Positions 1,324 to 21,778 of a DNA stretch of 21,778 bases are shown here, in pieces. Source of the stretch: a virus; IMG/VR virus record IMGVR_UViG_3300031669_000264, positions 1 to 21,778 of that record; one strand, given 5' to 3'. How positions within the stretch are numbered: position 1 is the stretch's first letter; every line of letters starts with the position of its first letter. The translations under genes were made by a program, and so were the position numbers. The notes under the pieces are model-generated. The model saw nothing but the letters and a program-made list of their open reading frames with translations, did not search any database and was not told the origin of the DNA.

Positions 1324-2357
1324 TACTTCGCTTCCAGCTTGGCGAGGCGTTTCTCAAGGGCCGCGATGACCTTGGCCTGGCGGTCGATCTCCTGACCCGC
1401 CCACATGGCTTGCTCGTAGGCAATGCCGAGCATGTTGACGGCGAGACGTTTGACCTTGCGCGGCGCCTTGGGATCAACCACGTATTCAGAGACAAGGGCG
1501 GCATCAAAGCGCTTCGCGGCCTGCGCCGTGCAACCTTTGCCTGACGCGTTGATGTCAGTACGGTCGTAGCTGACGAAAGGAAGCTTGCGGTGAATTGGTC
1601 GCGGCTCAACCACCTGAATGTTCGTTTTCAGGCGAGCATCGGAGGTGTTGAAGTTGGCGATGCCCACCGACGTAACCGTTCCGCCAATGGTGACGTTGGC
1701 GCTAAACGATGCCGATGTGGCTGAGAGTGCCAAGCACGACCACGCGCCCGCATAGGTAGCTGCGCTGGTGGATCGTGCGATAGATAGCACGGTGTTGAGC
1801 ACAGCCCCCGCATCAGTGTATGAGGTCAGCGTGTAGTTGGCGCCGATGTTGGCACCGCTTTGTGCTGACTCATCGCCCAGCTTTTGCAGCCAGCGAGCCA
1901 CACCTGCCGTTTCACCTTGCAGGCCCGAGTATGTAGTGCCCGCCGTGGGGCTATTGAGCTTGAGAACGGAGCTTGTCGAAGCTGGCGATATAGTGAGCTG
2001 GCCCGTGAGTGGCGAACCACTACCCGCCGCCAATGGCAAGTAACCACCCGCCACGAAGCTCTGCATCTGCCCCGCCGTGGGTCCGTTGTAAACGTAATCC
2101 CCCACCAGCCACGACAGCGCCGTGGTGCCCTCCTGCGCACGCATCACCGTCAGCGTTGAACCCGTGATCGCCGTGGCGTACACGATTTCAAAGTTATTGC
2201 GCGTTCCCTGATCATTCAGCGTCAGGACGTAATAGGCACCCACCGGAATGGATGCTGGCAGGTTGACCGAGCTTTCCAGCGTGATGCTTGTCGCGCTGGA
2301 GGAAATGGCCGACGCCAGTCCGGTGTTGACGTTGTTGGTAAATACGAAGGTGCTCAT
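1323..2357 (-). CDS. Tail fibre with C-terminal S74 intramolecular chaperone
   Basis: A 344-residue fibre protein. The N-terminal part (about 1-100) has beta-structured repeats similar to phage fibre attachment regions (SSSATSITLESSVNLP, NNFEIVYATAITGSTLTV). The middle is Ser/Thr/Ala-rich. From residue 239 it has SDARLKTNI, the signature of the peptidase S74 / endosialidase chaperone domain, which trimerises the fibre and cuts itself off at the Ser-Asp junction; S239 and D240 fit the catalytic Ser and the following Asp. The C-terminus (about 310-344) is a charged coiled coil (IDRQAKVIAALEKRLAKLEA). It lies 12 bases after baseplate J, and the next gene starts at its stop codon. The S74 call is strong; the receptor is unknown. 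Confidence 0.85.
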   Translation of the reverse strand: MSTFVFTNNVNTGLASAISSSATSITLESSVNLPASIPVGAYYVLTLNDQGTRNNFEIVYATAITGSTLTVMRAQEGTTALSWLVGDYVYNGPTAGQMQSFVAGGYLPLAAGSGSPLTGQLTISPASTSSVLKLNSPTAGTTYSGLQGETAGVARWLQKLGDESAQSGANIGANYTLTSYTDAGAVLNTVLSIARSTSAATYAGAWSCLALSATSASFSANVTIGGTVTSVGIANFNTSDARLKTNIQVVEPRPIHRKLPFVSYDRTDINASGKGCTAQAAKRFDAALVSEYVVDPKAPRKVKRLAVNMLGIAYEQAMWAGQEIDRQAKVIAALEKRLAKLEAK

Positions 2358-2369
2358 TTAGTTTCCCGA

Positions 2370-3782
2370 TCAGACTTGGGTGACGGTGACGCCCGTGGCG
2401 GAGCAATAGAAATAGCTTTCGAGGTCCGATGCAATAATGCTCGTCCCCGCGCCAGGTGAAGCCACCACGCCGTTAATCGTCACTACAAAAGTGAGTGTCG
2501 TGACATTGGAGGGTGCGATCACTTGAGCCGCCGCGTTCTGGAACGTAGCCTGCATCTCAAGCAGGTTAATGGGCTGCCCCACATAGATGGAGTTGAGATA
2601 AGTCTGTATGGCTGGCGCAGCCAGCTGATTGACGGCAGTGCCCGCGGTAAAGCTGGGAAGCGTGGTATTCCACGTCACCGCCACCGTCACCACCTGCTGC
2701 GGCGGGTTAACAAACGTGATGTTGTAGGTATTCGGATTCTGGTAGATCGAGACGTACACATTGCGCGGGTTTGGCGTCAGCGTGGCGCCTCCCGTATATG
2801 TGCCAAAAGCCGATCCATCCGTGGTCGTCGTGATCGTGGTCGCCGTGACGGACGCCACCGTATAGGTCACGTCAAAGCCTGTCGGTGTAGCGCCCGTTAC
2901 CGCGAAAGTCTGTCCAGCGATGTACCCGTGATTGAGGTTGGTCGTAATAACCACCGGGTTAGCCGCGGTCATGCCAGTGATGGCAAGTTGCGACCCCTGA
3001 ATCGCAGCAATGTCCGGCACACCCTGAAGGATGGCCGCGCCTACCGCATAGGCATCACCTCCACCGCAAATGATCTGCCAACCTCCTGAGACGGCATTGA
3101 TCGAGACAAGCTGTGGCTGCACTCCCGTGATCTTGTTCAGCAGGGTTTTGACGTATTCCGGCGTGCCCACGGACGTCATCTGCCCAGCCTGTATGACGCG
3201 TGAGCGATAGCTCTGCACGCTTTCGGCGCCCGTGGCCGGCGTTCCTGCCTCGGTGTTGTTCACCGTCAGCGTGTAAGCACTGGGCACGGAGGTGATGATC
3301 TGGTTGACTGTATCGGCAGGGATGGCGAATGTTCCGGAGGTGGTGGCCACTGCGTAGAGTTGTGGGCTATATCCGCCCGTCTCGATCACTCCACCGTCTT
3401 GCAGCGCGAACTGATGCGATCCATCGGACACCGTGAAGCCCGGCGACAAAACATAACCTGCCGGGCCGGCGAACTGAACATAAACGCTGGCATTCGTGGG
3501 CGTTCCTTGAGGCATGCCAAACTGTGCCCCGAGCTGGGCGAGCACGAAGGCGTTCGCCCCGTAAGGCGTCACGCTATTAAGCGTTTCCACGCGGGACTGA
3601 TCCATCACGACCAGAGCACCCACATCCGTGGAACTGATGTCCTCGATCAGCGATCCCGGAAGGTTTGCCGTGTAGCCGGGATTGGTCGACGCTACGCCGT
3701 TGATCAGTTCGGCGCGCAACGTGGCGGCAGGCGTAGGTACCGGCCCTGCGCTTGTCATCACAAGCGGGATGGATGTCGTCAT
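2370..3782 (-). CDS. Baseplate wedge protein J (gpJ/gp47-like)
   Basis: A 470-residue protein of the baseplate J family, which forms the wedge that triggers sheath contraction. Typical features are LRAELINGVASTNPGYTANLPGS near the N-terminus, the beta-structured region GYVLSPGFTVSDGSHQF (110-125), and the helical GAESVQSYRSRVIQAGQMTSVGTPEYVK core (185-212). Residues about 265-336 look like an extra beta-rich module (ITGMTAANPVVITT...GHGY-like turn...GTYTGGATL) similar to the E1-FCCH-type modules seen in phage tail proteins. The start ATG 3782 overlaps the stop of the gp25-like gene (ATGA). J following a gp25-like gene is the classic contractile baseplate order. Confidence 0.9.
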   Translation of the reverse strand: MTTSIPLVMTSAGPVPTPAATLRAELINGVASTNPGYTANLPGSLIEDISSTDVGALVVMDQSRVETLNSVTPYGANAFVLAQLGAQFGMPQGTPTNASVYVQFAGPAGYVLSPGFTVSDGSHQFALQDGGVIETGGYSPQLYAVATTSGTFAIPADTVNQIITSVPSAYTLTVNNTEAGTPATGAESVQSYRSRVIQAGQMTSVGTPEYVKTLLNKITGVQPQLVSINAVSGGWQIICGGGDAYAVGAAILQGVPDIAAIQGSQLAITGMTAANPVVITTNLNHGYIAGQTFAVTGATPTGFDVTYTVASVTATTITTTTDGSAFGTYTGGATLTPNPRNVYVSIYQNPNTYNITFVNPPQQVVTVAVTWNTTLPSFTAGTAVNQLAAPAIQTYLNSIYVGQPINLLEMQATFQNAAAQVIAPSNVTTLTFVVTINGVVASPGAGTSIIASDLESYFYCSATGVTVTQV

Positions 3783-4126
3783 GTGGGCAAGTCCGAGGTC
3801 AGCACAGCGCCGCTATGCGCGACTGCCGATACGTTGTATTGAGGAGGGAATGCCCCCGAAGCGCGATTGATCGCCAGGGATGCGAAGTAAGGAGCAAACC
3901 GCGTCTGTGCCTGCATGGCGTAGTAGTCGGGAAATACCTGCGTGATGACCGTCTGGTATTGCGGTATGCCGTAGTTCGCATAGAACGGCGACTCGCCCAG
4001 ATTCAGCTTGAGCACCTGCGCCAGCGTGGTCAGGTATACGTCATCGTCAAATCCCGCCGAATCGGTACTGACTTGCACCCATGTGTAGGTGCCGTCCGGG
4101 TTGTAGTTGCGTCCATAGGTTCTGAT
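3779..4126 (-). CDS. Baseplate wedge protein, gp25/gpW-like, with apparent non-canonical start
   Basis: A small baseplate wedge protein of the T4 gp25 / P2 gpW type. The core contains DDDVYLTTLAQVLKLNLGESPF, then YANYGIPQYQTVITQVFPDYY, all typical of the family. The first standard start in frame is GTG 4078, giving 99 residues. The frame continues upstream with TYGRNYNPDGTYTWV, which looks like the family's conserved N-terminus, and then reaches TAG at 4162-4160 without any ATG, GTG or TTG. The best candidate is ATC at 4126-4124, seven bases after a strong AAGGGG site (4139-4134), giving 115 residues beginning IRTYGRN. I used this start. The real start is uncertain; GTG 4078 is the conservative alternative. 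Confidence 0.75.
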   Translation of the reverse strand: MRTYGRNYNPDGTYTWVQVSTDSAGFDDDVYLTTLAQVLKLNLGESPFYANYGIPQYQTVITQVFPDYYAMQAQTRFAPYFASLAINRASGAFPPQYNVSAVAHSGAVLTSDLPT

Positions 4127-4139
4127 AGTCCTTCCCCTT
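4126..4139 (-). promoter_or_regulatory. Shine-Dalgarno site placing the gp25-like start at ATC 4126
   Basis: AAGGGG at 4139-4134 on the minus strand overlaps the spike stop codon. Seven bases separate it from ATC at 4126-4124, a normal spacing. The out-of-frame ATG at 4116 would give an unrelated peptide. This is the only strong ribosome site upstream of the conserved YGRNYNPDGTY segment. Confidence 0.5.
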
Positions 4140-4785
4140 AAACTGGTGGGCCAGAGTTGCTACCGCCCGACTGAACGCCGCTATGGACGTGGGTCTCAAA
4201 CAAAATACCGTCGATGGCCACACCGGAGCTGTTGATGGTCACCGTCTTCCCGCCACCCGTCAGCGTGATGCCAGACGAATCCAGCTTGATAGTGTTGGAT
4301 CCAAAGGTAAGCGTCGTGCCGTTTTGATCTGTGACAACCTGCGAGGTCGTCCCCGTGGTGGTGCGGATAATCGCGCCGTTCGGGCCTTGCACCTGCGCCG
4401 CGTTCTGGTCAATCGGTGGAGAGGCTTTGCTGCTCACTGGAACGAACACCAGCGCGGACAGGTTGCCGGGTCGTGTCAGTGTCGCTGTACCTCCACCTAG
4501 ACCGCTGATGCCACCCATATAGGCGTCGGCTGGCATCGTGACGCCCAAGTCACCGACCTGCGTGGGCATCCGTATCCACGAACTTTCCGCCTTAGGCATC
4601 GTGATCTGAGGAAGCGTCAGTGGCGCCGCGTTGACCTCAAAGGCAACCGTCACCAAGGCCCCCGAAACGGCAACCACGCGGCACGGGAGCGCCCTCCCTG
4701 TACTCTGTATGGCTGACAAAGCGCGTCGCTGTGCGCCCTGATTGAGCGTCTTTTGTAGCCAGAGCTTCGTGTAGTTGCTGGCCAT
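4138..4785 (-). CDS. Baseplate central spike protein (Gp138 / gpV / gp45-like)
   Basis: A 215-residue spike at the tip of the tail tube. Residues about 25-115 look like the OB-fold domain of Gp138-type baseplate proteins (LPCRVVAVSGALVTVAFEV, then PQITMPKAESSWIRMPTQVGDLGV). Residues about 135-195 are a short beta-helix-like region (IIRTTTGTTSQVVTDQNG, LTFGSNTIKLDSSGITLTGG). The C-terminus has ETHVHSG with His199 and His201, matching the HxH motif that binds an iron ion at the apex of contractile-tail spikes. The ATG overlaps the previous stop (TAATG). Strong call. Confidence 0.9.
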   Translation of the reverse strand: MASNYTKLWLQKTLNQGAQRRALSAIQSTGRALPCRVVAVSGALVTVAFEVNAAPLTLPQITMPKAESSWIRMPTQVGDLGVTMPADAYMGGISGLGGGTATLTRPGNLSALVFVPVSSKASPPIDQNAAQVQGPNGAIIRTTTGTTSQVVTDQNGTTLTFGSNTIKLDSSGITLTGGGKTVTINSSGVAIDGILFETHVHSGVQSGGSNSGPPV

Positions 4786-5735
4786 TACACAGTCACACAG
4801 TTAAAGACAGTGACCCAACTCGCCGCATCGGATGATCGGAAGTTGCCAATCTGGCGAAGTTCGGAAACGACGAAATTGTTCTGGAACGTGCTCTTGTATT
4901 TCAGGCTTGACGGCAGCGAAGCGGCGGAAGTCGAAACAAACCCCGGAGCGTTCTGCAATCCTTTGGGCATCGTGATAATCGACCCGATTTGCAGATCGGC
5001 ACGCATGACGGTTTTCACCTGAAGCGTGTTGACATCAATCCACGTCGGCTGCCCAACAAAGTCGTTGAAGTTGAGCTGGACCGGAGCCGGCGAATAGGTC
5101 TTGTCCAAGACAATGATTTTCCCGGCCTGAATCGTGATCTCAACACGTCCGTTAAAGTTATGCTCGGTATAGTCTCCTACGTACGTGGCAAGATCATCCA
5201 GCGTCGTAGCCGCGTGGAATTCGTCATGGTTCTGCACCAGATCGGCACTGATGTTCATGCTGATCGGCAGGTCGGGGTAGGCCACCTGCAGGCAGTGCGT
5301 AAGCGCATCGGCTAGCCGCTCGCCCTTGGGCCAGATCAGCGTCAGATTACCTTGGTTCTGTGGGGTATAGATGGAAGGAAGGAGAACGAGATCCAGTGTC
5401 ATCTCCGTACCCTCCCAATTTCCGAAGGCTTGGAACACTTTCCCGGCGATGATCGTTCCTGCCTGAGCAGGATTGGCTAGAGGAAAGCCGGCCTTCATGC
5501 CGGCCTTCATGATCAGATACATGCCAGCAAACTGCGTGGCTTGGCTCACGTCCTGCAGCGATACCCCTTCGATCGTCAGCGTCTGGCCACCACTAGGCGT
5601 GCCGTAAGGAAGTACCGGCATGTCGAACTCGATGTTCAACGCGCCGGAGTCATAGACACCCCTTGGATAGGATGACCACTGCTTTGCCGCCACCGATGAT
5701 CCTGTCGGCGTGAGGGTGATGTTGTAATACCTCAT
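4785..5735 (-). CDS. Baseplate hub / tail protein (gp44/gpD position)
   Basis: A 316-residue protein just upstream of the spike gene, where the hub protein that carries the spike normally lies (Mu gp44, P2 gpD). It begins MRYYNITLTPTGSSV and contains TLTIEGVSLQDVSQATQF and a DLVLLPSIYTPQNQGNLTLIWPKG segment. The second half has LNFNDFVGQPTWIDVNTLQVKTVMR and MRADLQIGSIITMPKGL, which resemble hub domains of related phages. It carries a duplicated MKAG (MKAGMKAG, residues about 76-83) from a 12-base tandem repeat in the DNA. It overlaps the previous gene as ATGA. Function rests on synteny and resemblance to structural hub proteins. Confidence 0.75.
   Translation of the reverse strand: MRYYNITLTPTGSSVAAKQWSSYPRGVYDSGALNIEFDMPVLPYGTPSGGQTLTIEGVSLQDVSQATQFAGMYLIMKAGMKAGFPLANPAQAGTIIAGKVFQAFGNWEGTEMTLDLVLLPSIYTPQNQGNLTLIWPKGERLADALTHCLQVAYPDLPISMNISADLVQNHDEFHAATTLDDLATYVGDYTEHNFNGRVEITIQAGKIIVLDKTYSPAPVQLNFNDFVGQPTWIDVNTLQVKTVMRADLQIGSIITMPKGLQNAPGFVSTSAASLPSSLKYKSTFQNNFVVSELRQIGNFRSSDAASWVTVFNCVTV
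5487..5510. repeat. Tandem duplication of a 12-base unit
   Basis: GCCGGCCTTCAT occurs twice in a row (5487-5498 and 5499-5510). On the minus strand it encodes MKAG twice within the hub gene and keeps the frame, so it looks like a recent in-frame slippage duplication. Confidence 0.85.
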
Positions 5736-6010
5736 GGGGTTTGTTCAAAATTCCCGGTATCCTCGCGGAACAACAGCGTGGACGCGGTAAAGATGTTGGG
5801 CGCGAGATAGATGTCTGCGCCAAGCGGTGAGCCCACAAGTGCGCCGGCCCAGATAGTCGCGCCGCTCTGATCGGATAGCGTCAGATACCAGCGCTGACCA
5901 GCTAGGTTCCACATCACTGCGCCGTTGTAGCTCTGGCCGTCCAGGGTGAAGATGGTGGAGAACGGAGGTGTCGCATTATTGTTGGGCGTGAAGGCAATCA
6001 GCGTGGTCAT
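5732..6010 (-). CDS. Small baseplate plug-like tail protein (DUF6983-like)
   Basis: A 92-residue protein with a single compact beta-rich domain: FTLDGQSYNGAVMWNLAGQRWYLTLSD, then GATIWAGALVGSPLGADIYL, and a C-terminal STLLFREDTGNF. This resembles DUF6983 proteins, similar to the small plug protein of cyanophage-type simple baseplates that sits between hub and tube. It is coupled to both neighbours by ATGA overlaps, between a tail protein and the hub protein. The family call is from recall and is fairly good; the exact place in the particle is inferred. Confidence 0.7.
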   Translation of the reverse strand: MTTLIAFTPNNNATPPFSTIFTLDGQSYNGAVMWNLAGQRWYLTLSDQSGATIWAGALVGSPLGADIYLAPNIFTASTLLFREDTGNFEQTP

Positions 6011-6735
6011 AGCGGCTGCGACAAGTAGCTGATGACGGACCCGGCGGCATTCGTGATGCTGCTCGCCGCGCCTTGTGCCGGCGATCCCGCCAAGGCACTC
6101 GCGCTAGACCATCCGCTCGATGTGACCTGGGAACCGCCCGATATCTTGCTCATAAGGCTGTTGTATGCCAAGGCAGCTTGCTGCTGGGTGACCAGTGGTT
6201 TTACAAAGTCAAGCTGGTATTCCACCTGTTTCTGTTTCGTCGTGCCGCTGGTGATGTCCGTCATGGCCGTCATCAGACAGTTGGTATACAGAAAGGCCGG
6301 CGTAGCGATGTGGTAAGAGCCGCCTGCGTTGTTGTGCTGGTTGAGTGAGTTCTGCAGGGATGTGAAGATGGCCAGCTTCGTCAGATACCCGGCCGTATCC
6401 TTGACTGGCGCGATCATGTTCAGCGAGATGTTCAGCGGCTGCTGGATGATCGCGTTGGCGGCCACTTGCTGATTGGCGAAGGGATATGTGCCAATGGTGT
6501 TGCTGATCAGCGTACTTCCGGGCAACGGCAGGTAACGGGCGAAGAAGTCATCCGTGGAAAGTGACCTGGTTGTGGCAATGCCCTGCACCAGCGACGCAGC
6601 TTGACCCACTAGAGCGATGATGGGCAACATGCCGCCCGTCGTGCCGGAAGCGATACCGTCAACAAGAATGATGGGCGAGACCTGAAAGGCGAGGTCGTAG
6701 GTTGATCGGAAGGCAGAGGAAAGATTACTCATCAT
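6007..6735 (-). CDS. Tail/baseplate protein of unknown exact role
   Basis: A 242-residue protein directly after the tape measure gene and before the plug and hub genes. It starts MMSNLSSAFRSTYDLAFQVSPIILVDG, a pattern seen in tail proteins at this position in similar phages. It has a hydrophobic, Gly/Ala-rich stretch (TGGMLPIIALVGQAASLVQG, about 34-53) and an Ala/Ser-rich C-terminal tail (about 195-242). ATG codons at 6735 and 6732 are adjacent; the first overlaps the tape measure stop. It probably joins the tail tube or tape measure to the baseplate hub. That is inferred from position. Confidence 0.7.
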   Translation of the reverse strand: MMSNLSSAFRSTYDLAFQVSPIILVDGIASGTTGGMLPIIALVGQAASLVQGIATTRSLSTDDFFARYLPLPGSTLISNTIGTYPFANQQVAANAIIQQPLNISLNMIAPVKDTAGYLTKLAIFTSLQNSLNQHNNAGGSYHIATPAFLYTNCLMTAMTDITSGTTKQKQVEYQLDFVKPLVTQQQAALAYNSLMSKISGGSQVTSSGWSSASALAGSPAQGAASSITNAAGSVISYLSQPL

Positions 6736-11796: not shown

Positions 11797-12747
11797 TTAG
11801 GTGGTTAGGCTGACGGATGCCGAAAGGATGAGACGACGTGCCACGGCATCGGCGGTGCCTTGGTAGTAGGAGGCGATAATGGTCAGGGTCTTTTTCATCG
11901 CCAGCGCGGCGATTTCCACCTGCCCGCGTTTTTCATCGCGGATGGCAGGCGAGTTGCAGAATCCGAAGTCGTCGGTATTGAGTGAGTAATCAATCAATGC
12001 GGCGTAATACTGAATCACCTGCTGGCTGGTGAACCCATAAAAGGTCAGGCGCACCGTGTCACGCATGAGCTGTGACGAAGGGAGCGAATGAAGCGGCGCA
12101 GATCCCGATCCCGTTGTCCCAGGCCAGCCATAAATCGGAAAGGCGCCGATGGCTTCCGTTAGTGCGGGCTCGATATGCGCCACGATGTAGGGCGGTTTAA
12201 CATTGTCTGGCACGAGAAACGATGCATAGACCGGCGCCGCGCTGTTCTGTGCCAGCCAGATCGGCAGGCTATTGGACACAATCGGTTCAACGGGTAAATC
12301 AAGCGCAGAGGCGACTAGTTGCGAGGCGAGCGCCGGATACACCGCATAGCCGCTGTAGTGCCACAACCCGGACTGCTGATAGAACGATCCATGATCAGCA
12401 AAGGCGATCTGGATCGTCGCGCCGTCTACCGTCCACGCCCCAATCCACATCGTGCCGGGGCTGATGGCATTGAGCTGGGTTATTTCCTCGGTCGCTGTGA
12501 AAACAAAGCGATTGATGGCAATCGTCTGGTCTTCATCCTGGTGCCGGTCGGTGATGTAATGCAGCGAGCCGTTAAAGTCCGCTGTGTCGGCACTGGCCAC
12601 CCAGAAAATATACCCGTCTTCGGAAAGCACCACTTTCGTGTATTGCGTGAAGACAATCGACTGATTGCCCGAAATGCTCGATACGCCCGCTGCCAATGCC
12701 GCCTGCAGCGGTGCCGAGGCGGCGGTGGCTTCAGAGAGCAGTGACAT
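11797..12747 (-). CDS. Neck/tail-completion region structural protein, unknown
   Basis: A 316-residue protein. It begins MSLLSEATAASAPLQAALAA, then VFTQYTKVVLSEDGYIFWVA, and later YVVAHIEPAL-like and PIYGWPGT stretches, ending VARRLILSASVSLTT. No known domain is recognised. Aromatic residues are frequent (IFWVAS, SGLWHYSGYAVYPALA). It overlaps the preceding gene (TGATG). Genes at this location, between capsid and sheath, usually encode head-to-tail joining proteins; a segment near 220-260 (MRDTVRLTFYGFTSQQVIQY) resembles tail-terminator-like proteins in its helix-strand pattern. That resemblance is weak. Confidence 0.6.
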   Translation of the reverse strand: MSLLSEATAASAPLQAALAAGVSSISGNQSIVFTQYTKVVLSEDGYIFWVASADTADFNGSLHYITDRHQDEDQTIAINRFVFTATEEITQLNAISPGTMWIGAWTVDGATIQIAFADHGSFYQQSGLWHYSGYAVYPALASQLVASALDLPVEPIVSNSLPIWLAQNSAAPVYASFLVPDNVKPPYIVAHIEPALTEAIGAFPIYGWPGTTGSGSAPLHSLPSSQLMRDTVRLTFYGFTSQQVIQYYAALIDYSLNTDDFGFCNSPAIRDEKRGQVEIAALAMKKTLTIIASYYQGTADAVARRLILSASVSLTT

Positions 12748-13178
12748 CAGTCAATCCATGCGCGGAAACTGGCCTGATACAAGCCGGTATCAATGAATGC
12801 TTGCCGTGGCTTGTTCTTCGCCGCGTACGGATGTTTCTTGCGATGATTCACACCTGCATCCGCCGCCTTTATCGGCTGGGTCGTCGGCAACGTGCGCTGC
12901 ATCTCGCCGGAATCGAGGAAGTCGCGAAAGCGTTCTTCCACCTTGCCCATCGCGGGTTTCAGGTCGAGAAGGCTGATGTGATTGCCTTGCGCGATGCTCT
13001 CGATTGCGCCGGCCACTTGATTCACCAGCGTTTCAGCGATGAACCCCTCGTTTAGTTCAAGGAAGGTCCGCATGACGTGATAATCATTCTCCAGGTACTC
13101 GGCCACATCCCCGGTCGTCGTCACACCATCTTTGTCGCTGTAGCCGACATCCACGACGCCGAGGTGAAGTTGTTTCAC
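12747..13178 (-). CDS. Neck/tail protein, possibly HK97 gp10-like, unknown
   Basis: A 143-residue protein. I chose GTG 13178, which overlaps the previous stop as GTGA; a longer open frame to 13238 would run into the preceding gene. It starts VKQLHLGVVDVGYSDKDGVT. It has a helical stretch FIAETLVNQVAGAIESIAQG, then KPAMGKVEERFRDFLDSGEM, and ends RQAFIDTGLYQASFRAWID. The final FIDTGLYQASF resembles the VDTGxLxxS motif of HK97 gp10 / Mu gpG-like tail-completion proteins. The call is tentative: motif resemblance plus position between capsid and sheath. Confidence 0.6.
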   Translation of the reverse strand: MKQLHLGVVDVGYSDKDGVTTTGDVAEYLENDYHVMRTFLELNEGFIAETLVNQVAGAIESIAQGNHISLLDLKPAMGKVEERFRDFLDSGEMQRTLPTTQPIKAADAGVNHRKKHPYAAKNKPRQAFIDTGLYQASFRAWID

Positions 13179-13630
13179 GATACGTCCACCACAGTCGGAC
13201 CATAGGACTGTGCATAGCCGAGGTATTGCCTCCCCCACGGCGTTTTCTGCACATCGATGTCCGAATACGTGAGGTTCTTCATGAACTCAGGCACCACCAG
13301 CGTCTGACTGGTGGCTTCGTCACTGCTTGATGCCACGCCACCTACCACAAAGGACATGAGTGAGAATTGTGTGCGGGCCGAAGTAAAGAACGTCTGCCCG
13401 GCCTGATCCTGTGCGATCGTGAGCAGGTGGTGCAGTCCGAGGTTGTAGACCGCGATGACATACAGTCCTTGCGGCATCTGCGGCACTGTGTTGGTTACGT
13501 CGAGGGCATAGTCGAACGCCCAGGTGTAGTAGTCCGAGTTAACCGGCAGAATCAGGGCTGTCACGCCCTGCCCTTGGCAGAACGTGATGAAGTCCGCCTG
13601 ATTCGGTGTAAAGGGATTGACAAAGGCCAT
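13175..13630 (-). CDS. Connector/neck protein of unknown family
   Basis: A 151-residue protein starting MAFVNPFTPNQADFITFCQG, with a mixed helix and strand pattern: ALILPVNSDYYTWAFDYALD, VPQMPQGLYVIAVYNLGLHH, then MSFVVGGVASSSDEATSQTL and VVPEFMKNLTYSDIDVQKTP. Size and position match the head-tail connector or adaptor proteins that follow the capsid gene. ATG overlaps the stop of the gene before it (TGATG) and the next gene begins at its own stop (GTGA), so the three are coupled. No family is recognised with confidence. Confidence 0.65.
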   Translation of the reverse strand: MAFVNPFTPNQADFITFCQGQGVTALILPVNSDYYTWAFDYALDVTNTVPQMPQGLYVIAVYNLGLHHLLTIAQDQAGQTFFTSARTQFSLMSFVVGGVASSSDEATSQTLVVPEFMKNLTYSDIDVQKTPWGRQYLGYAQSYGPTVVDVS

Positions 13631-14133
13631 CAGCTGATCTTCAGGCTGTCACGGCCGTCTTCAGCGACACCTACCTTGAAATGGATGGCGTCCTTACTGG
13701 GTCGCTCGTTGCGTGGCGTGTCCTGATGTACTTCGACTTCAGTCACCTTGGCCATGCGCTTGTTGGTGCGCTTGTCCCGATTGGCCCGGTCAAAGCCCAA
13801 TGCGGCCTTGGTAGCCTCATCGGCTGACCGCCGCTCCTGATTCTCCACCACGGCCTCGTGGCCAGAGAGAATCTGGCTTTCGGTGATGGCCTTGCCGATG
13901 CGGTACAGCAGGCCTGGAAATTGCTTCAGCTTGCTGTTGATCTCGGTCGCCGCGCGGGCGCCGTATTTCTCCAGCTGTTTGACGACGGAATCAATCTGTG
14001 CCGGATTCCAGTCGCGCCCCAATTCCACCTGCGTGCCTGAGGGAATGCGGGTGTAATAGGGTCGATTGGATTCCAGCACACGATAGTGATGATTCCAGTC
14101 TTGTTTGGTGGTGTTGGCGATGAACAGAGACAT
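13630..14133 (-). CDS. Capsid-downstream protein of unknown function
   Basis: A 167-residue protein. The start is ATG 14133, with an AAGGGG site upstream; an open frame continues to 14739 but lies over the capsid gene and is antisense-type shadow. It begins MSLFIANTTKQDWNHHYRVL, contains RPYYTRIPSGTQVELGRDWN, a helical KQLEKYGARAATEINSKLKQ, and a Lys/Arg/Glu-rich C-terminal half (GFDRANRDKRTNKRMAKVTEV). It may bind nucleic acid or the capsid interior. It starts just after two terminators, so it probably has lower expression than the capsid. No family is assigned. Confidence 0.65.
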   Translation of the reverse strand: MSLFIANTTKQDWNHHYRVLESNRPYYTRIPSGTQVELGRDWNPAQIDSVVKQLEKYGARAATEINSKLKQFPGLLYRIGKAITESQILSGHEAVVENQERRSADEATKAALGFDRANRDKRTNKRMAKVTEVEVHQDTPRNERPSKDAIHFKVGVAEDGRDSLKIS

Positions 14134-14151
14134 GAGGTTTCCCCTTAAAGG

Positions 14152-14175
14152 AAAAGCCCCTGGGATCCAGGGGCC
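14152..14175 (-). terminator. Second rho-independent-type terminator after capsid gene
   Basis: On the minus strand, GCCCCTGG, loop ATC, CCAGGGGC (14174-14156), followed by TTTT. The perfect 8-bp GC-rich stem lies just upstream of the ribosome site of the next gene, so it probably reduces but does not block its transcription. Confidence 0.75.
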
Positions 14176-14180
14176 GAGCA

Positions 14181-14203
14181 TAAAAAAAGCTCCTTTCGGA
14201 GCC
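14181..14203 (-). terminator. Rho-independent terminator after capsid gene
   Basis: On the minus strand, GGCTCC, loop GAAA, GGAGC followed by seven T and A (14203-14181). It has a classic GNRA-tetraloop hairpin with a T-run, 26 bases after the capsid stop codon at 14229. Confidence 0.9.
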
Positions 14204-14228
14204 GCCAGAGTATTGCTGCGAAGTGGTA

Positions 14229-15254
14229 TCAGTAAGCCATGCTGAGCAGATACAGGCCCTGCGGGCGGATACCCCAGCCGGAGGTGATACGAAGCTCCTG
14301 CACTTCGGTGATCGCGCCGTCCGGGGTTGGCGTCGGGATCTTCAGCGGAGCGGCCATGTCGGCATATTGCACGTTGACAGCCTTCATGTTCGGATTCACA
14401 TCCGCGAACACGTTGGTGTTGATGCCATTGATGTCGGGCTGCTCGATCTCCGGCAAGGTCATGATCACCAGATCCGTACCGCCCGCACCCTTGCCGATCA
14501 GGGTGTCGTCGTAGAACCACTCGACGGTATCGCCATTGGCCTTGGCGGTCTCGCTTACGACTTCGGCCGTGGTAGCCGTGCCGGCGCCGGGACGCTGATA
14601 CTGCACGACCTGCACGATGTTGGCATACCCCAACTGCAATCCAATCCGCTGCGGGCAGATGATCTTGATGTTGTTGCCTACCACCGCGCCGGATTGATAC
14701 ATGCCGCTCTTCAGCGCCACGATCTGACCGAGCAGCCACAACGCCATCTCGCCGTTGTCATAGGTCGTCACTGAGTCATTGCCGTAGCTGTCGGGTGGCA
14801 ACGTGACCGCAGTGGCGCCCGCGGTGTTAACCAAACCTTCGCCATTGGCCGGGCTGAAGCCGTACAGCAACGCGGAGCGCATCTGCTGGAAGATGCCCTG
14901 ACGCATGGCCAGGTCCTGCGCGTGCGGAAGCGAGATGTTGTAGTTGCCGGCCGCCGCCATGTCGTGATGGTCATAGATCGCGCGGGTGCGGATCAAGTAA
15001 GTCGGCGTGGAGAAGTAGCTCGCGGTCAGGGTTGCGCTGGGCAACTGGTTGAACGAGGACTGAGACGCCTGCACATCGGTACGCAAATCGAGCGAGTTGA
15101 TGTAGACGTACAGGTCTTCGCTGCTGATCTTGACACGGGGCTTGCCACCCTGAAGCGCGGCAAAGGCGCCGGAGGGCTGGGCATACGTGATGATCAGGTC
15201 CGGTTCCGAAAAGCTCGGAGTCACCTTGGCCTGTGCGGGAAAGAAATTGCTCAT
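14229..15254 (-). CDS. Major capsid protein (DUF2184)
   Basis: A 341-residue protein of the DUF2184 family, HK97-fold capsids of some contractile phages. It begins MSNFFPAQAKVTPSFSEPDL, has an N-arm and then DLYVYINSLDLRTDVQASQS. Mid-protein features are YLIRTRAIYDHHDMAAAGNY (helix region) and MRQGIFQQMRSALLYGFSPA. The C-terminal part has DTVEWFYDDTLIGKGAGGTD, LPEIEQPDINGINTNVFADV and ITSGWGIRPQGLYLLSMAY. An AAGGAG site lies nine bases before ATG, and two terminators follow. It lies just after the small structural protein gene, so these are probably co-transcribed at high level. Strong call. Confidence 0.92.
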   Translation of the reverse strand: MSNFFPAQAKVTPSFSEPDLIITYAQPSGAFAALQGGKPRVKISSEDLYVYINSLDLRTDVQASQSSFNQLPSATLTASYFSTPTYLIRTRAIYDHHDMAAAGNYNISLPHAQDLAMRQGIFQQMRSALLYGFSPANGEGLVNTAGATAVTLPPDSYGNDSVTTYDNGEMALWLLGQIVALKSGMYQSGAVVGNNIKIICPQRIGLQLGYANIVQVVQYQRPGAGTATTAEVVSETAKANGDTVEWFYDDTLIGKGAGGTDLVIMTLPEIEQPDINGINTNVFADVNPNMKAVNVQYADMAAPLKIPTPTPDGAITEVQELRITSGWGIRPQGLYLLSMAY

Positions 15255-15267
15255 AGCTCAGTGCTCC

Positions 15268-15864
15268 TTACAGAAGGATGGTGGCAGCAGAACCGGCGAC
15301 CCACGTCACGGCACCTGTGCCGGAGTCGTAGGCAACAACCTTGCTGCTGGCGTTGATGGAGAGGATCTTGACGTTGAACGCGTTGATGCTGTCGTAGGGG
15401 ATCAGCTCGTTGTTCGTGAAGTCCCACGACACCTGCTGGGTGATGGCATTACCATCGACCGCGGCAGCCAGCGCAGCACTGCACTTCACGCGGATGCGCG
15501 CCCCGCAACCCAGACGGAAATACGGAATCGTGCCGCCGCCGGAAGTGGTCTGTACCGAGTTGCCCGGCACGATCACCATGTTGTAGCCCTGGGTGAAAAC
15601 GCTGAAGCCCGTGGTGGTGGCGTCATTCGTGGCCAGAGCCAGCGAACTACCCAAGACGCCTTCGCCAGTGGCTGGCACCAGTTCCTGAATCGGCAGACCG
15701 CCCCAGACGGGCTGGGTCACCGCCGCAGCGAGCACGCCGGAGTTGAGGTACATGCGTGACGACGGATCGTCAACGAAGTCACCCTGTACGAAGCCCTGAG
15801 TGGCCTGCAGAAAGGTGTTCTGCGGAGCCGACGTGAGGGCGGGGTTGAAAGAGACAGTAGCCAT
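15268..15864 (-). CDS. Capsid decoration / cement-like structural protein
   Basis: A 198-residue protein beginning MATVSFNPALTSAPQNTFLQ. It has SSRMYLNSGVLAAAVTQPVW, GGLPIQELVPATGEGVLGSS, and GARIRVKCSAALAAAVDGNA. The C-terminal half is beta-rich (KILSINASSKVVAYDSGTGA). Proteins of this sort lie between protease/scaffold and capsid in similar phages and are usually head decoration or cement proteins. ATG overlaps the protease/scaffold stop by one base. Its link with the capsid gene (13-base gap) supports a head role. The exact function is inferred. Confidence 0.75.
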   Translation of the reverse strand: MATVSFNPALTSAPQNTFLQATQGFVQGDFVDDPSSRMYLNSGVLAAAVTQPVWGGLPIQELVPATGEGVLGSSLALATNDATTTGFSVFTQGYNMVIVPGNSVQTTSGGGTIPYFRLGCGARIRVKCSAALAAAVDGNAITQQVSWDFTNNELIPYDSINAFNVKILSINASSKVVAYDSGTGAVTWVAGSAATILL

Positions 15865-16736
15865 CAGTTGACTCCCTTGTTGTGGTTACGATTGATGGTC
15901 GCGACGATGCCGGGCGACTTGAAATGGGACAGCCAGGTGTCGATATCGCCGGTATAGCTGGTGACATCACGGCCAGCCGCATCGCGGCGGACGTGCGCGA
16001 TCAGACGACCCTTGGGTGCATTCGCCGGGTTCATGGCGACCGCTTGCGCATCGGAGTAGATCAGACGCTCGATCGCATCGAAGGCCGCGCCATCCAACGA
16101 GTCCAGACGGGCATCTTTCATAGCTGCCGAGTGCTTCTGGAACTTCGCCGCCAGACGCTTGCGGTAGGCAATCGGGCTTTCGCCATGCAGCGGGGCATTG
16201 ACACTATCGCCGAACAGACGGGCGACACCCTCAGCCTTGGCCTGCGCGGCGCTCAGGGCGTCACGGTCGGCGTTGGAAAGTGGCTGGGACAGGCCATTCA
16301 GGCGAGCATCCATGGCGCGGATCTGGGAACGCAGGTCAGCATTCTCCCGCGACTGGGAGTCCTTCCGATCCTTGCGCTCTTCCTTCTCTTCGTCCGAATC
16401 CTTGCGCGCATCCTTCTTCTCTTCCTTTTCCTCTTTCTCGCCCCTTTCCTCCTCGGAGTCCTTGCGAGCATCTTCGCGATCTTCGTCCGAATCCTTGCGG
16501 TCTGCCTTGGCCTTTTTCTCCTCAGCGACCTTGCCGGCGATCTTCTCGGCAGCTTCCTTGTCGTATCCCTCGCCCTCGACCTTCTTCTCCAGACCGTCGA
16601 AACTGTCCTTCTTGGCCGAATCGGCCTCGAACTTGTCGCCACCCTTGTTTTCGATGGCGTCCATACGGGCGCTCATCGAATCGAACCGCTTGCCCAACTC
16701 GTCAGCCCACGCCGGGGCCTTATCTTCGTTTGCCAT
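15864..16736 (-). CDS. Possible separate scaffold protein from an internal start
   Basis: ATG at 16736-16734 within the protease gene, preceded by a GAGGA ribosome site about 7 bases upstream. It gives a 290-residue product reading MANEDKAPAWADELGKRFDS, the C-terminal part of the fused protein. The start of this segment looks like a natural N-terminus, and the product (coiled-coil, Lys/Glu/Asp-rich linker, then a globular C-terminus) is what an internal scaffold would be. Lambda C/Nu3 uses the same strategy. This is inference from sequence; both proteins share the same stop. Confidence 0.5.
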   Translation of the reverse strand: MANEDKAPAWADELGKRFDSMSARMDAIENKGGDKFEADSAKKDSFDGLEKKVEGEGYDKEAAEKIAGKVAEEKKAKADRKDSDEDREDARKDSEEERGEKEEKEEKKDARKDSDEEKEERKDRKDSQSRENADLRSQIRAMDARLNGLSQPLSNADRDALSAAQAKAEGVARLFGDSVNAPLHGESPIAYRKRLAAKFQKHSAAMKDARLDSLDGAAFDAIERLIYSDAQAVAMNPANAPKGRLIAHVRRDAAGRDVTSYTGDIDTWLSHFKSPGIVATINRNHNKGVN

Positions 16737-17759
16737 GGTTGAATCCTCGTTGATGTTGACACCGTTAGGCGTGCCGCCCTTGTCCCATACGCCCTCCTCG
16801 CAGATGGCGAGATGGTCTAAATAGGACGGTTTACCCTCGATTAGCACCGTTTTGCCATCGGATAACTCGATGGTTTCAGTCGAACCGGCGTCACGGAAAA
16901 CAACGGCCGGGCTTGTTGAGATGTGCGACGTCAGCATGAGCTGCGCCGCATCGTCATCAAACACTTTTGCAATGCCCCATACCTCATCACCTTTGAGGTA
17001 GGGCAAGATGACCATGCCAATGGCACGATCACGGTATTCTTTGGTATCGAGGATTCCCTCGGTGGGGTGCTCGAAGATCAATGGCAGCCCGTTGCAGCGC
17101 TCCACGAAATCATCGGACAGGAAGTCTTCCGGTGGCCGATATACGTACTCGTCCAGCGCCTGGCGATAGCTGGTGCCCGTACCCGTTACGCGGACATCGA
17201 ATAGCCAGATGTTTTCGTATTGCTGCGGGCTGGAAAGCTCGCCGGCCATAATGGCCTTGGCGATATCCAGCTCGTGCATCTGGGCGGATTCGCCCGATCC
17301 CGCCGAGTCTTTGCGCGACTCTCTCGACTTTAATTCTTCCTCGATGAGGTTTTTAACGTGCGTTGAGCCAATTCCTTTGTCTCCGGTCTTCTCGATCAGC
17401 TCCAATGCCTTTTTTAGATGTTCGGTTTCCTTTCCTTTGAGGTATTCAGCTCCTGCAACATTCTTTCCTCCTTGGAGGGTATTGAATTTCTTTGTAAATT
17501 CATGAACGAAAGGAGCCGCCTTTGTTTCTTTCATGGCGACCGGCTCACTGGGGGATGATTTCTCGCCACCGGACCCGGACCCTGACCCGAACTTCCCATC
17601 TTCGGCACGGGGATGGGAAGCCTCCTCCCATGCCGCATCAAGACGCATACTGTCCATCGACACAAACTCCTCCCCCACACTTTCCGGTATGCCAAGCGTA
17701 GAATGGCCATGGGCTGCCGCTTCCATCGCGTTGTGTTGTTTCTCGCTGACGGACGGCAT
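15864..17759 (-). CDS. DUF2213 prohead protease fused to scaffold
   Basis: A 631-residue head-maturation protein. Residues 1-35 are MPSVSEKQHNAMEAAAHGHS... and 43-57 have WEEASHPRAEDGKF, a short motif seen in several phage head proteins. Residues about 77-150 form a low-GC insert. The DUF2213 protease core (about 161-325) begins HELDIAKAIMAGELSSPQQY and has GLPLIFEHPTEGI (H231) and TSHISTSPAVVF (S281/S283), candidate His and Ser of the protease. Residues about 342-500 are highly charged with repeated RKDS(D/E)E units, and 500-631 form the C-terminal head domain. Protease-scaffold fusions with removal during head maturation are well known. The start ATG 17759 has only a loosely spaced AAGGA site. 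Confidence 0.85.
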   Translation of the reverse strand: MPSVSEKQHNAMEAAAHGHSTLGIPESVGEEFVSMDSMRLDAAWEEASHPRAEDGKFGSGSGSGGEKSSPSEPVAMKETKAAPFVHEFTKKFNTLQGGKNVAGAEYLKGKETEHLKKALELIEKTGDKGIGSTHVKNLIEEELKSRESRKDSAGSGESAQMHELDIAKAIMAGELSSPQQYENIWLFDVRVTGTGTSYRQALDEYVYRPPEDFLSDDFVERCNGLPLIFEHPTEGILDTKEYRDRAIGMVILPYLKGDEVWGIAKVFDDDAAQLMLTSHISTSPAVVFRDAGSTETIELSDGKTVLIEGKPSYLDHLAICEEGVWDKGGTPNGVNINEDSTMANEDKAPAWADELGKRFDSMSARMDAIENKGGDKFEADSAKKDSFDGLEKKVEGEGYDKEAAEKIAGKVAEEKKAKADRKDSDEDREDARKDSEEERGEKEEKEEKKDARKDSDEEKEERKDRKDSQSRENADLRSQIRAMDARLNGLSQPLSNADRDALSAAQAKAEGVARLFGDSVNAPLHGESPIAYRKRLAAKFQKHSAAMKDARLDSLDGAAFDAIERLIYSDAQAVAMNPANAPKGRLIAHVRRDAAGRDVTSYTGDIDTWLSHFKSPGIVATINRNHNKGVN

Positions 17760-17795
17760 GGGTATGGGATGTCCTTGAGACTATTCGGAGTTGAA

Positions 17796-18170
17796 ATGAA
17801 ACGATTCGCTTTACTGCTCGCTCTACTGCCTGCCGTGGCCTTCGCCCAGCAGATGACGCACATGGAAAAGCTCATGGCTCAAGCCATGGCCAAGTCCGCA
17901 CAACCCGGCTCGGGCGACTTCCCGGCCTCCTGTGACTCACCCATGGCCAACGATCAGATGATGCAGGCGATGCAACAGGTCGTCGGCAACCCGATGGGTG
18001 ATGTGCTTGAGCAGATCGTCGTGACGCGCCAGGTAGGCGAGACCACCGACGACGGGTACTCCTGCATGATCGCAGCCATCTGGCGTGACCATGTTCGGCA
18101 GCATGGCTTGCTGTCCTTCATCAAGTCGCCCAATGGCGTGATTGTGAATTGGCACCCGTTCGGGTACTAA
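17796..18170 (+). CDS. Small exported protein (moron-like), function unknown
   Basis: A 124-residue plus-strand protein, opposite to all neighbouring structural genes. I chose ATG 17796 because CGGAG lies five bases upstream and because it opens with a clear signal peptide: MKRFALLLALLPAVAFA, cleavage after A17 (AFA/QQ). An ORF extension to 17613 is antisense to the protease gene and rejected. The mature protein is Met-rich and has two Cys (C46, C90) that could pair in the periplasm. It ends in GVIVNWHPFGY. Its stop overlaps the convergent head-gene stop by four bases. The position suggests a moron, for instance one affecting the host envelope or superinfection; no family is recognised. Confidence 0.75.
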   Translation: MKRFALLLALLPAVAFAQQMTHMEKLMAQAMAKSAQPGSGDFPASCDSPMANDQMMQAMQQVVGNPMGDVLEQIVVTRQVGETTDDGYSCMIAAIWRDHVRQHGLLSFIKSPNGVIVNWHPFGY

Positions 18171-19936
18171 GCCGCCCTAACCCGCGTCTCACTCAGCAAC
18201 TTGCGCCCCTTCTCGGTCAGCATGTCGTCGGGAAGGTCGCGTAGGTTCGTGTAATAGACGACGTAGCAGCGGCAATTATGTGTTATTATGTTGTTCGTGA
18301 CATACCAGCCCATTCTTGTCTGGAGGTTGTACACATGCCCCGCAAAGTCAACCCTGTTAACGCTCACGACATTATCCGTTTGCGCAGCGAAGGGAAGAGC
18401 CTCCATGAAATCGCTGACTGCCTTGGCGTCTCCGTTGCAACCCTCCACAATCGAAGGAATGCGGGACTCATCCAATGGGGAAATCTCCCCAACATAGATC
18501 GGGTTGCATCCCTTGATGGCAGAAGCCTTGCGAAAGACCATCTTTCCGGGAAAAGCATTTTTTCGCTTGCCAAGGAAAGTGGAGTATCCCGAGCTTGCAT
18601 TATCAAATCCATCCGCAGCGTAGGCGTTGAGCCTAGGCGTCAAAAGGAGGCGAACATACTCATAGCATCCAACAAGACGCCGGAACAGCATGCCGCCGGC
18701 GCTAAGGCTGCTAATGAGGCATGCAAAGGAAGAAAGGCCTCTATGGCTGAAAAAATCAAAAGGGCCGCCACGCGGTCTTGTATTGCCGGAATGGGTGAAC
18801 GCGAAGTCTTGGAAGCCCTTATCAAGCGCGGTGTGCTTGCAGAATTGCAGTGGCCTTGCGGCCCTTACAATATCGACGTTGCCTGTCCTTCCGTCGCCGT
18901 GGAACTGCTTGGATTGCCCACTGCGCACCTCAGGAACCCCAGATTCAGCGAGCGAGCCAAATACCTTCGCGATCGTGGGTACTGCGTCATCCTTGTCCTT
19001 TGCCGAAACAAGCGTATTGATGACCTCACCAACGCGCTTGATCACGTCGTCTCCCTTGTTCAAGATGCCCAGAGCTTTCCATCCATGCGAAGTAAGGACT
19101 GGATGATTCGGTGTTCCTCGAAGCGTCTCCCCAGAAGCCGTGACAACCTCAATGAGCTCTCCGACATACCAGCGTCGATACGCTATTTCCACACCGTCAG
19201 CGAATGGCACCACTGAATCGCCCGGAAAACAGAAAACCTCCTCACCGGCTCCGGTCATCTCGTCCAGATAGCCGGCGCCCTTGTGTAGCAGACCCTTTTC
19301 CATGGCCCAGCTGCCGCGCATGGCGTAAACCTTCTGGTCGCGCTCCTTGTGGTCGGGCCGGTAGTCATACCCCGCCTGCCGCCAGTGCGAGCGCCACATG
19401 CCAGCGATGGCCTTGGTATCCGCGGCAATCACCGCGTCAATCGAGGCCATGAGCTTGTGGCCCTGGTCGATGGCCACGCGCCTTTCCTCGAATGTCACCC
19501 GGCGCAGCGCCTTGGTGATGTCCGCCTTGACCTCGCGCTTGTCCACTACGCGCGATCCACCCTCAGGGATGGAACTCGCCCAGCCAGAGAACCGCTGGAG
19601 TGTCCGGTCGACCATCTGCTCGCGGTTTAGCTTGATCAGGTTGGCGCTAGCCACAATCCGGCGGGACAACTCGTCGCGCAGCTGCGGTTTCAGATGCTGG
19701 ATAGTGAACCGTGACGCATCCGGATGTCGGCGCTTGATGGCGGTCGGAGTCAGGACGCGCTCGAAACTGGCCTCCAGCGACCGCTTCAGATGCTGGTGGG
19801 TAACCTTCTCCGATGGGAGCTGTTCCTCAGCAGCCTTCTGCAGACGCTTCAGCCACAGGTCTAGAATGTGGGGGTCAGCGAAACCGTGCTCGGTGAAGTG
19901 AGCGATGGCGCTTGCCAGCAGTTCGAGGAAATTCAC
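18167..19936 (-). CDS. Mu gpF / SPP1 gp7-like minor head protein interrupted by an intein
   Basis: A 589-residue precursor. GTG 19936 overlaps the portal stop (GTGA). The N-extein (1-235) is helical and charged and ends KGAGYLDEMTGAGEEVF; the C-extein (555-589) starts CRCYVVYYTNLRDLPDD. Joined, they give a 270-residue protein whose GEEVFCRCYVVYY matches the Cys-rich CRC end motif of Mu F-like proteins. Such proteins act in head assembly with the portal. The intein (236-554) begins CFPGDSVV and ends THN before Cys555, so splicing would restore the head protein. Nearly all the intein is overlapped in antisense by the plus-strand nuclease gene. If splicing fails, head assembly should fail. Confident for precursor and intein ends. 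Confidence 0.88.
   Translation of the reverse strand: MNFLELLASAIAHFTEHGFADPHILDLWLKRLQKAAEEQLPSEKVTHQHLKRSLEASFERVLTPTAIKRRHPDASRFTIQHLKPQLRDELSRRIVASANLIKLNREQMVDRTLQRFSGWASSIPEGGSRVVDKREVKADITKALRRVTFEERRVAIDQGHKLMASIDAVIAADTKAIAGMWRSHWRQAGYDYRPDHKERDQKVYAMRGSWAMEKGLLHKGAGYLDEMTGAGEEVFCFPGDSVVPFADGVEIAYRRWYVGELIEVVTASGETLRGTPNHPVLTSHGWKALGILNKGDDVIKRVGEVINTLVSAKDKDDAVPTIAKVFGSLAESGVPEVRSGQSKQFHGDGRTGNVDIVRAARPLQFCKHTALDKGFQDFAFTHSGNTRPRGGPFDFFSHRGLSSFACLISSLSAGGMLFRRLVGCYEYVRLLLTPRLNAYAADGFDNASSGYSTFLGKRKNAFPGKMVFRKASAIKGCNPIYVGEISPLDESRIPSIVEGCNGDAKAVSDFMEALPFAAQTDNVVSVNRVDFAGHVYNLQTRMGWYVTNNIITHNCRCYVVYYTNLRDLPDDMLTEKGRKLLSETRVRAA
18284..18289 (+). promoter_or_regulatory. Weak -10-like TATTAT ahead of the plus-strand nuclease
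   Basis: TATTAT at 18284-18289 in a locally AT-rich patch 46 bases before the nuclease start. It overlies the last intein codons and the splice junction. No good -35 element was seen at the usual distance, so a promoter is only possible. Confidence 0.25.
18322..18326 (+). promoter_or_regulatory. Shine-Dalgarno site of the antisense nuclease gene
   Basis: GGAGG at 18322-18326, eight bases before ATG 18335. It supports this start over the earlier ATG at 18278, which has no such site. It lies on the plus strand, inside the minus-strand intein C-terminal block coding region. Confidence 0.75.
18335..19216 (+). CDS. HTH plus Vsr/DUF559-like nuclease, antisense inside the intein (predicted homing endonuclease)
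   Basis: A 293-residue protein encoded entirely antisense to the intein. Two helix-turn-helix units are visible: SLHEIADCLGVSVATLHNR (about 22-40) and SIFSLAKESGVSRACIIKS (about 74-92). The nuclease part (about 150-225) has GEREVLEALIKRG (E155/E157), GPYNIDVACPSVAVELLG (D181, E190), TAHLRN (H198) and RAKYLRDRGYCVILVL. This pattern is that of Vsr/DUF559 PD-(D/E)xK-fold enzymes, the class used by some phage homing endonucleases (for example I-Bth0305I). The C-terminus (KDWMIRCSSKRLPRS) resembles endings of this phage family. By role it should cut head genes that lack the intein and drive copying of the intein. Motif assignment is good; activity is predicted. Confidence 0.85.
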   Translation: MPRKVNPVNAHDIIRLRSEGKSLHEIADCLGVSVATLHNRRNAGLIQWGNLPNIDRVASLDGRSLAKDHLSGKSIFSLAKESGVSRACIIKSIRSVGVEPRRQKEANILIASNKTPEQHAAGAKAANEACKGRKASMAEKIKRAATRSCIAGMGEREVLEALIKRGVLAELQWPCGPYNIDVACPSVAVELLGLPTAHLRNPRFSERAKYLRDRGYCVILVLCRNKRIDDLTNALDHVVSLVQDAQSFPSMRSKDWMIRCSSKRLPRSRDNLNELSDIPASIRYFHTVSEWHH

Positions 19937-21477: not shown

Positions 21478-21480
21478 GAA

Positions 21481-21778
21481 TCAATACCCTTCGGTGTCGC
21501 CCAGGCTGATGGCGACGCCATACGTGAATGTATCGAGAAGATCGCGGGGGCCGTCTTTCTGACCCATGCGGAAGCTGCAGACCTGCGAAATAAAATGGTT
21601 GCGCGTCTGGCCCTTGTAATTGACCGTCTTGTCGTGCGCGTAGCGGCTGATCTTCACCTCGCCGCGATAGACATAGCCTGAGACCGACAACGCGCGACCT
21701 TCCTTTCCCATAGCGACCAATGCACCATCAATGGGTGCTGCCGGCCATCCGCGCCGCTGTGCCTGTTGTAGCAACACG
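21481..21778 (-). CDS. Terminase large subunit, C-terminal part (partial)
   Basis: The last 98 or so residues of the packaging ATPase/nuclease; the gene continues beyond the right edge. The first codon in the window, GTG, is internal and not a start. The sequence contains DGALVAMGKEGRALSVSGYV, YKGQTRNHFISQVCSFRMGQ and ends GPRDLLDTFTYGVAISLGDTEGY. The DLLDTFTYGVAIS segment matches the end of phage terminase nuclease domains, where a conserved Asp near the C-terminus helps bind metal. Its position before the portal gene is standard. Confidence 0.85.
   Translation of the reverse strand, partial: VLLQQAQRRGWPAAPIDGALVAMGKEGRALSVSGYVYRGEVKISRYAHDKTVNYKGQTRNHFISQVCSFRMGQKDGPRDLLDTFTYGVAISLGDTEGY

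Follow-up and report, generated by a model that had tools for sequence, protein, structure and literature searches.

Natural AUU starts are carried by infC and pcnB of E. coli, and the baseplate gene 26 of phage T4 has an internal AUU start from which a shorter product is made. Gene 26 is, like the gp25-like gene described here, a baseplate gene, but its AUU is internal, whereas the ATC, ATT or ATA codon (ATH) of the gp25-like gene would start the full-length protein. AUC is weak as a start codon in laboratory tests and, to our knowledge, natural AUC starts are very rare. In S. aureus, infC, cvfC1, ccpN and citZ start with AUU or AUA behind an extended Shine-Dalgarno (SD) sequence and yield about 10% of the AUG output in poor medium, with ccpN reaching up to 30% in rich medium (PMC13009471). 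The gp25-like genes resemble these in the combination of AUH with a strong SD, and the start is conserved among relatives of cvfC1 and ccpN; the S. aureus genes are cellular and their sites were mapped by ribosome profiling (PMC13009471), whereas the gp25-like gene is a phage structural gene, and in its case AUC is included and the changes recur within a single family. Translation re-initiation in E. coli takes place at starts near an upstream stop and is enhanced by an SD; that work describes reporters with non-canonical starts which, like the gp25-like start, lie near a stop, but for which a mutant initiator tRNA was used (PMC2268962). Translational coupling falls steeply with distance (PMC10666635). 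An AUC start in a phage gene was not found in our literature search, and no AUC, AUU or other near-cognate start in a gp25-like gene was found among the papers listed, which were mostly without subscription papers; a term search of PMC11445065, PMC11497404, and PMC9841429 returned nothing on AUC. AUH starts as such are already known; none of the papers searched showed them recurring within a family of phage structural genes.

The window, i.e., the whole stretch of DNA analysed, is a virus record of 21,778 bases with contractile-tail genes coded on the minus strand. In transcriptional order, these include a baseplate hub gene (4785..5735, −; phrog_196, E 4.1e-22), a baseplate spike (gpV apex) gene (4138..4785, −; Pfam Apex PF18946, E 7.9e-6), the gp25-like baseplate gene read from ATC (3779..4126, −; 115 codons plus TGA), and a baseplate J-like gene (2370..3782, −; phrog_6 baseplate wedge subunit, E 1.8e-23), the ATG of which overlaps the gp25-like stop (ATGA). 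The gene order spike (V), W, J is seen in the window, with the spike gene upstream and J downstream, and the same order was seen by eye in two related loci (L170 and L177) as well as in the annotation of Shewanella phage QDWS.

The gp25-like protein is very probably translated from AUC at 4126, helped by a strong SD; this reading is based on the frame, the spacing, the alignment with the canonical starts of relatives, the recurrence of ATH, the conservation of codons 2–16, and the predicted fold. Read on the minus strand, an in-frame TAG (4160..4162, −) closes the gp25-like frame upstream; from there the frame is open down to TGA 3779, including 11 codons ahead of the ATC. It reads TAG (4162-4160), CAA CTC TGG CCC ACC AGT TTA AGG GGA AGG ACT, ATC (4126-4124), and continues AGA ACC TAT GGA CGC ... 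TGG GTG (4078-4076). The sequence-only reading had claimed that no ATG, GTG or TTG stands between the TAG and GTG 4078, and this was exact: none was present in frame between 4159 and 4079, so that GTG 4078 is the first canonical in-frame codon and is where the program-made list of open reading frames begins the gene. Its second claim, of an AAGGGG correctly spaced for the ATC, also held. The SD TTAAGGGGA (4133..4141, −) ends 6 nt before the proposed ATC start codon (4124..4126, −), its core AAGGGG (4139-4134) is separated from the ATC by 7 nt (AAGGACT), and it overlaps the TAA stop of the spike gene (4138..4140, −), which lies 11 nt before the ATC. The duplex with ACCUCCUUA was calculated at −8.3 kcal/mol, and an SD of this strength or stronger was carried by 12.5% of 176 relatives with canonical starts. 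An out-of-frame ATG (4114..4116, −) within TATGG, which arises from the conserved Tyr-Gly codons, was taken as incidental; by eye, its frame closes after 28 codons.

Relatives were collected from viral contigs (the best 80 of 212, of 419, of 108, and of 415 confirmed stretches), and further ones from genomes and two pattern scans; after removing exact copies over 250 bases and 8 partial or edge rows, 212 distinct loci were retained. Aligning relatives to see where their ATG falls, as had been suggested from the sequence, supported the non-canonical ATC start: the aligned first codon, exactly at the window's ATC, was canonical in 192 of the 212 loci (ATG 172, GTG 17, TTG 3). The phrog_7986 profile matched the ATC-started protein at E 1.5e-40 with profile positions 1-111 on residues 1-111, and the placement of the ATC is better than chance because position 1 of the profile meets residue 1 and 192/212 loci are canonical exactly there. 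Among the other 20 loci, 13 had an upstream canonical codon at most 15 codons away and carried CTT, CTA, TTA, GCT, CCG, CCA, CGT or AAG and in one case ATT (L401) as codon 1, and seven had no such upstream codon. All seven of the latter carried ATH, namely ATC in the window and L170, ATT in L169, L329, L345, and L447, and ATA in L148 (7/7 versus 1/13 with an upstream canonical codon; Fisher p 1e-4). Among these seven, the window itself was picked because of its ATC, two loci were obtained with an ATH-specific scan, and another two with a scan for which one of the latter served as the query. The ATH pattern scan returned 19 stretches, 7 of them in the family, and a DTG control scan returned at least 120 stretches, with 78 in the family among 80 sites examined. 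The genome scan yielded four relatives of the gp25-like gene, and when 399 and 398 genomes were searched with the family, 1 and 4 of them matched, respectively (centre genome counted), so that genomes enlarged the sample little.

The near-cognate reading is most compelling at loci where the next in-frame canonical codon is distant, i.e., in the window and L170 (codon 17 in both), L148 (codon 18), and L329 (codon 73). A GTG follows the ATT soon in L169 and L447 (codon 7) and in L345 (codon 9), so these three could start there and lose only 6 to 8 residues; the GTG at codon 7 of L169 pairs with −2.4 kcal/mol versus −7.3 at its ATT, and the GTG at codon 9 of L345 with −4.4 versus −10.3 kcal/mol at its ATT. 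L345 also has a GTG at codon 30 with good SD pairing (−7.9). Canonical codons further upstream were found in L329 (36 and 39 codons upstream, within the spike gene, which is in a different frame) and in L447 (31 codons upstream, in a frame overlapping the preceding gene). L401 looks like an eighth ATH case: its upstream TTG (−15) sits in the spike open reading frame, TAGGAG was found by eye 8 nt before the ATT, and the ATG used by its close relatives is followed in L401 by a TAG three codons later (by eye). L148 may be a decayed prophage; its contig has an open reading frame resembling the window's gene at 19933-21477 (by eye), with the spike open reading frame directly after it.

Two of these loci have further features between the spike and gp25-like genes. 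In L169, the hairpin CCCCGCCTAGCGGGG, which resembles a terminator and has a T-run behind it, was seen by eye just ahead of the ATT start (reverse strand, upstream of 4896). In L447, a gene at 1992-2495 (+), which we take to be HNH-like by its motif, lies between the two genes, and its stop lies 5 nt before the ATT.

The seven ATH starts had stronger SD pairing, from −6.4 to −11.8 kcal/mol, than the 192 canonical starts with their median of −5.0 kcal/mol (Mann-Whitney p 8.6e-4, without correction for kinship). The distance from the stop of the upstream open reading frame to the ATH codon was 11 nt in the window, 15 in L170, 53 in L169, 13 in L329, −4 in L148 (AUAA overlap), 15 in L345, 5 in L447, and 22 in L401, so nearness to a stop is usual but not constant. 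When the stretch from −25 to +25 was folded for six ATH loci, they shared no trend.

It is very unlikely that the ATC arose from an ATG or GTG start in this contig alone, whether through an error in sequencing or assembly or through a recent mutation. Such an origin would agree with the window being known from a single contig and with the GTG or ATG starts of its nearest relatives. Megablast of the window against phages gave no match, the best near-full-length relative reached 73% (among the matches listed; the scans may omit records very near the window), and no second copy of its gp25-like gene was found in the collections searched, so base 4124 rests on a single assembly. Such an origin is opposed by ATH codons at other loci of the family, with identical copies in several contigs: the ATT of L169 was found in 5 contigs that do not differ over 545 bases, the ATC of L170 in 2 contigs, and the ATT of L447 in 2 contigs, in each case with different metagenome numbers. 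As ATH recurs at six other distinct loci, sequencing error is disfavoured as a general explanation. Moreover, the seven non-canonical loci are not a mix but all ATH, which by chance has a probability of 0.0027 assuming equal odds for the seven non-canonical single changes from ATG, or 0.006 if six lineages are counted. Finally, 9.7 kb of the window (12083-21778) recur almost unchanged (99.8%) in the contig L486, and the comparison showed 20 mismatches (9 nonsynonymous, 5 synonymous, 6 intergenic) and 2 gaps in 9697 columns; 18 of the 20 mismatches and both gaps fall into two clusters, and with only two mismatches outside of them, isolated base errors in the window assembly look rare.

A second alternative, in which GTG 4078 (codon 17; 4076..4078, −) is the true start and the real protein has 99 residues, is judged very unlikely and was rejected as the main start, even though no canonical codon precedes it in frame and the program-made list uses it. 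Its best SD pairing is weaker (−5.7 kcal/mol) and 12 nt off, and in L329 no canonical codon follows the ATT before number 73. A GTG start would also drop 16 conserved residues, a segment that lies in frame in the relatives, as a canonical codon stands at residue 1 in 192/212 and upstream in 13/212 loci. The conserved N-terminus ahead of GTG 4078 proposed by the sequence-only reading was confirmed by the conservation of codons 2–16 (pN/pS 0.32-0.51 for the window versus four relatives with ATG or GTG, and 0.23 for L170 versus L169, the proteins of which are 86% identical with many synonymous differences between the genes), and the structure prediction places part of a beta-hairpin there. For the latter, a first structure model (22 rows, pLDDT 66; weak fold searches) was replaced by a model from 126 rows (pLDDT 82, pTM 0.72), in which strands are predicted at residues 3-8 and 14-19. 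As strand 3-8 and part of strand 14-19 precede the GTG, a start there would remove the hairpin.

The same model bears on the identity of the product. The protein belongs to phrog_7986, to which PHROG assigns no function; Pfam and NCBIfam searches of the window's protein gave no match, and a PDB sequence search with the family returned only titin, at a chance-level E of 1.1. In Foldseek searches, the top match was T4 gp25 (probability 1.00, E 3.5e-3, TM 0.48), none reached E ≤ 0.001, and matches 1-5 were all T4 gp25 or gp25/TssE-type baseplate entries of contractile systems. VIA aligned residues 22-115 of the model with the T4 gp25 crystal structure 5iw9 (Z 6.8, rmsd 4.3, 94 aligned) and gave Z 6.1-6.4 for 5iv5, 9f4b, and 7kh1, aligned from residue 1; with Z under 8, support for the gp25 fold is moderate. 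The name gp25-like used in the sequence-only reading is hence backed by fold and gene order, with no match to a Pfam or NCBIfam model, and the product is, with moderate confidence, a predicted gp25-like baseplate wedge protein or sheath initiator. It is similar to the sheath-initiator family of T4 gp25, P2 gpW, and TssE in predicted fold and in its position between spike and baseplate J, and differs in the missing Pfam/NCBIfam sequence match and in the ATC start.

The remaining alternative, in which the N-terminal segment lacks its own start codon and is made by ribosomes that shift frame in the spike gene or read through its stop, is extremely improbable. In its favour are the end of the spike gene only 11 nt upstream and the frame open for 11 codons ahead of the ATC. 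Against it, no standard slippery heptamer was seen by eye where the spike gene ends, and most relatives have a canonical start of their own at the same place. In addition, the frame offsets to the upstream stop are 2 (window, L169, L148, L447), 0 (L170, L345), and 1 (L329, L401) at the eight ATH loci, which argues against one such mechanism, as no single event fits all.

Other parts of the window showed features unrelated to the start codon. The differences from L486 form a cluster at 16424-16486, in a low-complexity charged region of a 631-aa gene, with two opposite 1-base gaps. Two overlapping open reading frames (9282-8677 and 8887-8561, −; phrog_11810 and phrog_14324) occupy a position where the programmed frameshift of a tail assembly chaperone might be expected. 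The head-morphogenesis gene (19936-18167, −) contains an intein-like stretch (Pfam Intein_splicing, E 8.3e-7, below the curated cut-off), and antisense within this gene lies an open reading frame of 312 aa (18278-19213, +) with helix-turn-helix matches and without a match to a nuclease domain. Aggregatibacter phage S1249 has a homologous antisense frame within its Mu F gene (338 aa, unannotated; an intein match was found there, too), as does Gordonia phage Affeca within its MuF gene (280 aa), and the frame of the window was matched by 122 phage records, 35 of them at ≥80% coverage. It may encode a homing endonuclease of inteins that is conserved in antisense orientation.

Reconstructed on trees, ATC, ATT, and ATA starts arose several times among the gp25-like relatives. 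In the tree of the gp25-like protein with residue 1 removed (193 rows), the 6 ATH rows required 5 changes, 3 of which were forced by supported branches; in the baseplate-J tree (130 of 393 rows after thinning), the 7 ATH rows required 6 changes, at least 4 of them forced by supported branches. Both were short-search trees. L170 and L169 (as L177) were sisters in the J tree, and the window joins them in a polytomy, so all three may owe their ATH codon to one origin.

Near-cognate starts were also counted in the neighbouring genes. Under a strict rule, by which the frame had to be free of canonical codons all the way to position 3 of the model, the same loci gave 5/194 for the gp25-like gene, 1/132 for the hub, 0/171 for the spike, 0/189 for J, and 0/149 for the tail I-like gene. 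With the 15-codon rule, the counts were 7/212 for the gp25-like gene, 1/152 for the hub, 0/192 for the spike, and 0/213 for J; the tail I-like gene (30/172), the gene at 5732-6010 (7/147), and the gene at 6007-6735 (3/94) have a canonical codon further upstream at these loci; these cases were therefore taken as N-terminal extensions, and the three genes were excluded from the comparison. Without the window and without the loci found by pattern or their twins, 4/172 gp25-like loci compared to 1/424 for hub, spike, and J under the 15-codon rule (p 0.026), with some bias remaining since L329 and L345 came from the scan queried with L170. The counts are suggestive of an enrichment of ATH starts in the gp25-like gene relative to its neighbours. 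The baseplate hub gene of L338 (708 onwards, +) has an ATC 5 nt behind GGGGAGG, with the next canonical codon at 53, and appears to be a second gene with a near-cognate start.

For initiation at AUC 4126, the following course is proposed. The strong SD UUAAGGGGA, which overlaps the spike stop codon, would set the 30S ribosome subunit on the AUC, and the AUC in the P site would presumably be read by the initiator fMet-tRNA with the third base mismatched. The product would be fMet-RTYGRNYNPDGTYTWV..., 115 residues long and beginning fMet-Arg-Thr. Ribosomes finishing the spike gene 11 nt upstream may assist by coupling, and the output would probably lie below the AUG level.

Whether AUC, AUU, and AUA amount to a recurrent, selected trait, in which the wedge protein is under-initiated with compensation by the SD and its ratio to the neighbouring baseplate parts is set in this way, is a more tentative matter, and we regard it as possible rather than probable. 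If it were true, near-cognate starts would be a hidden low-percentage feature of phage structural operons that is missed by gene callers restricted to ATG, GTG, and TTG. Such callers would in any case truncate or miss genes of this kind, and here they would cut off the front of the protein. The repeated replacement of ATG or GTG by AUH within one family, behind a strong SD, makes start-codon tolerance testable by comparison of relatives and with simple reporters.
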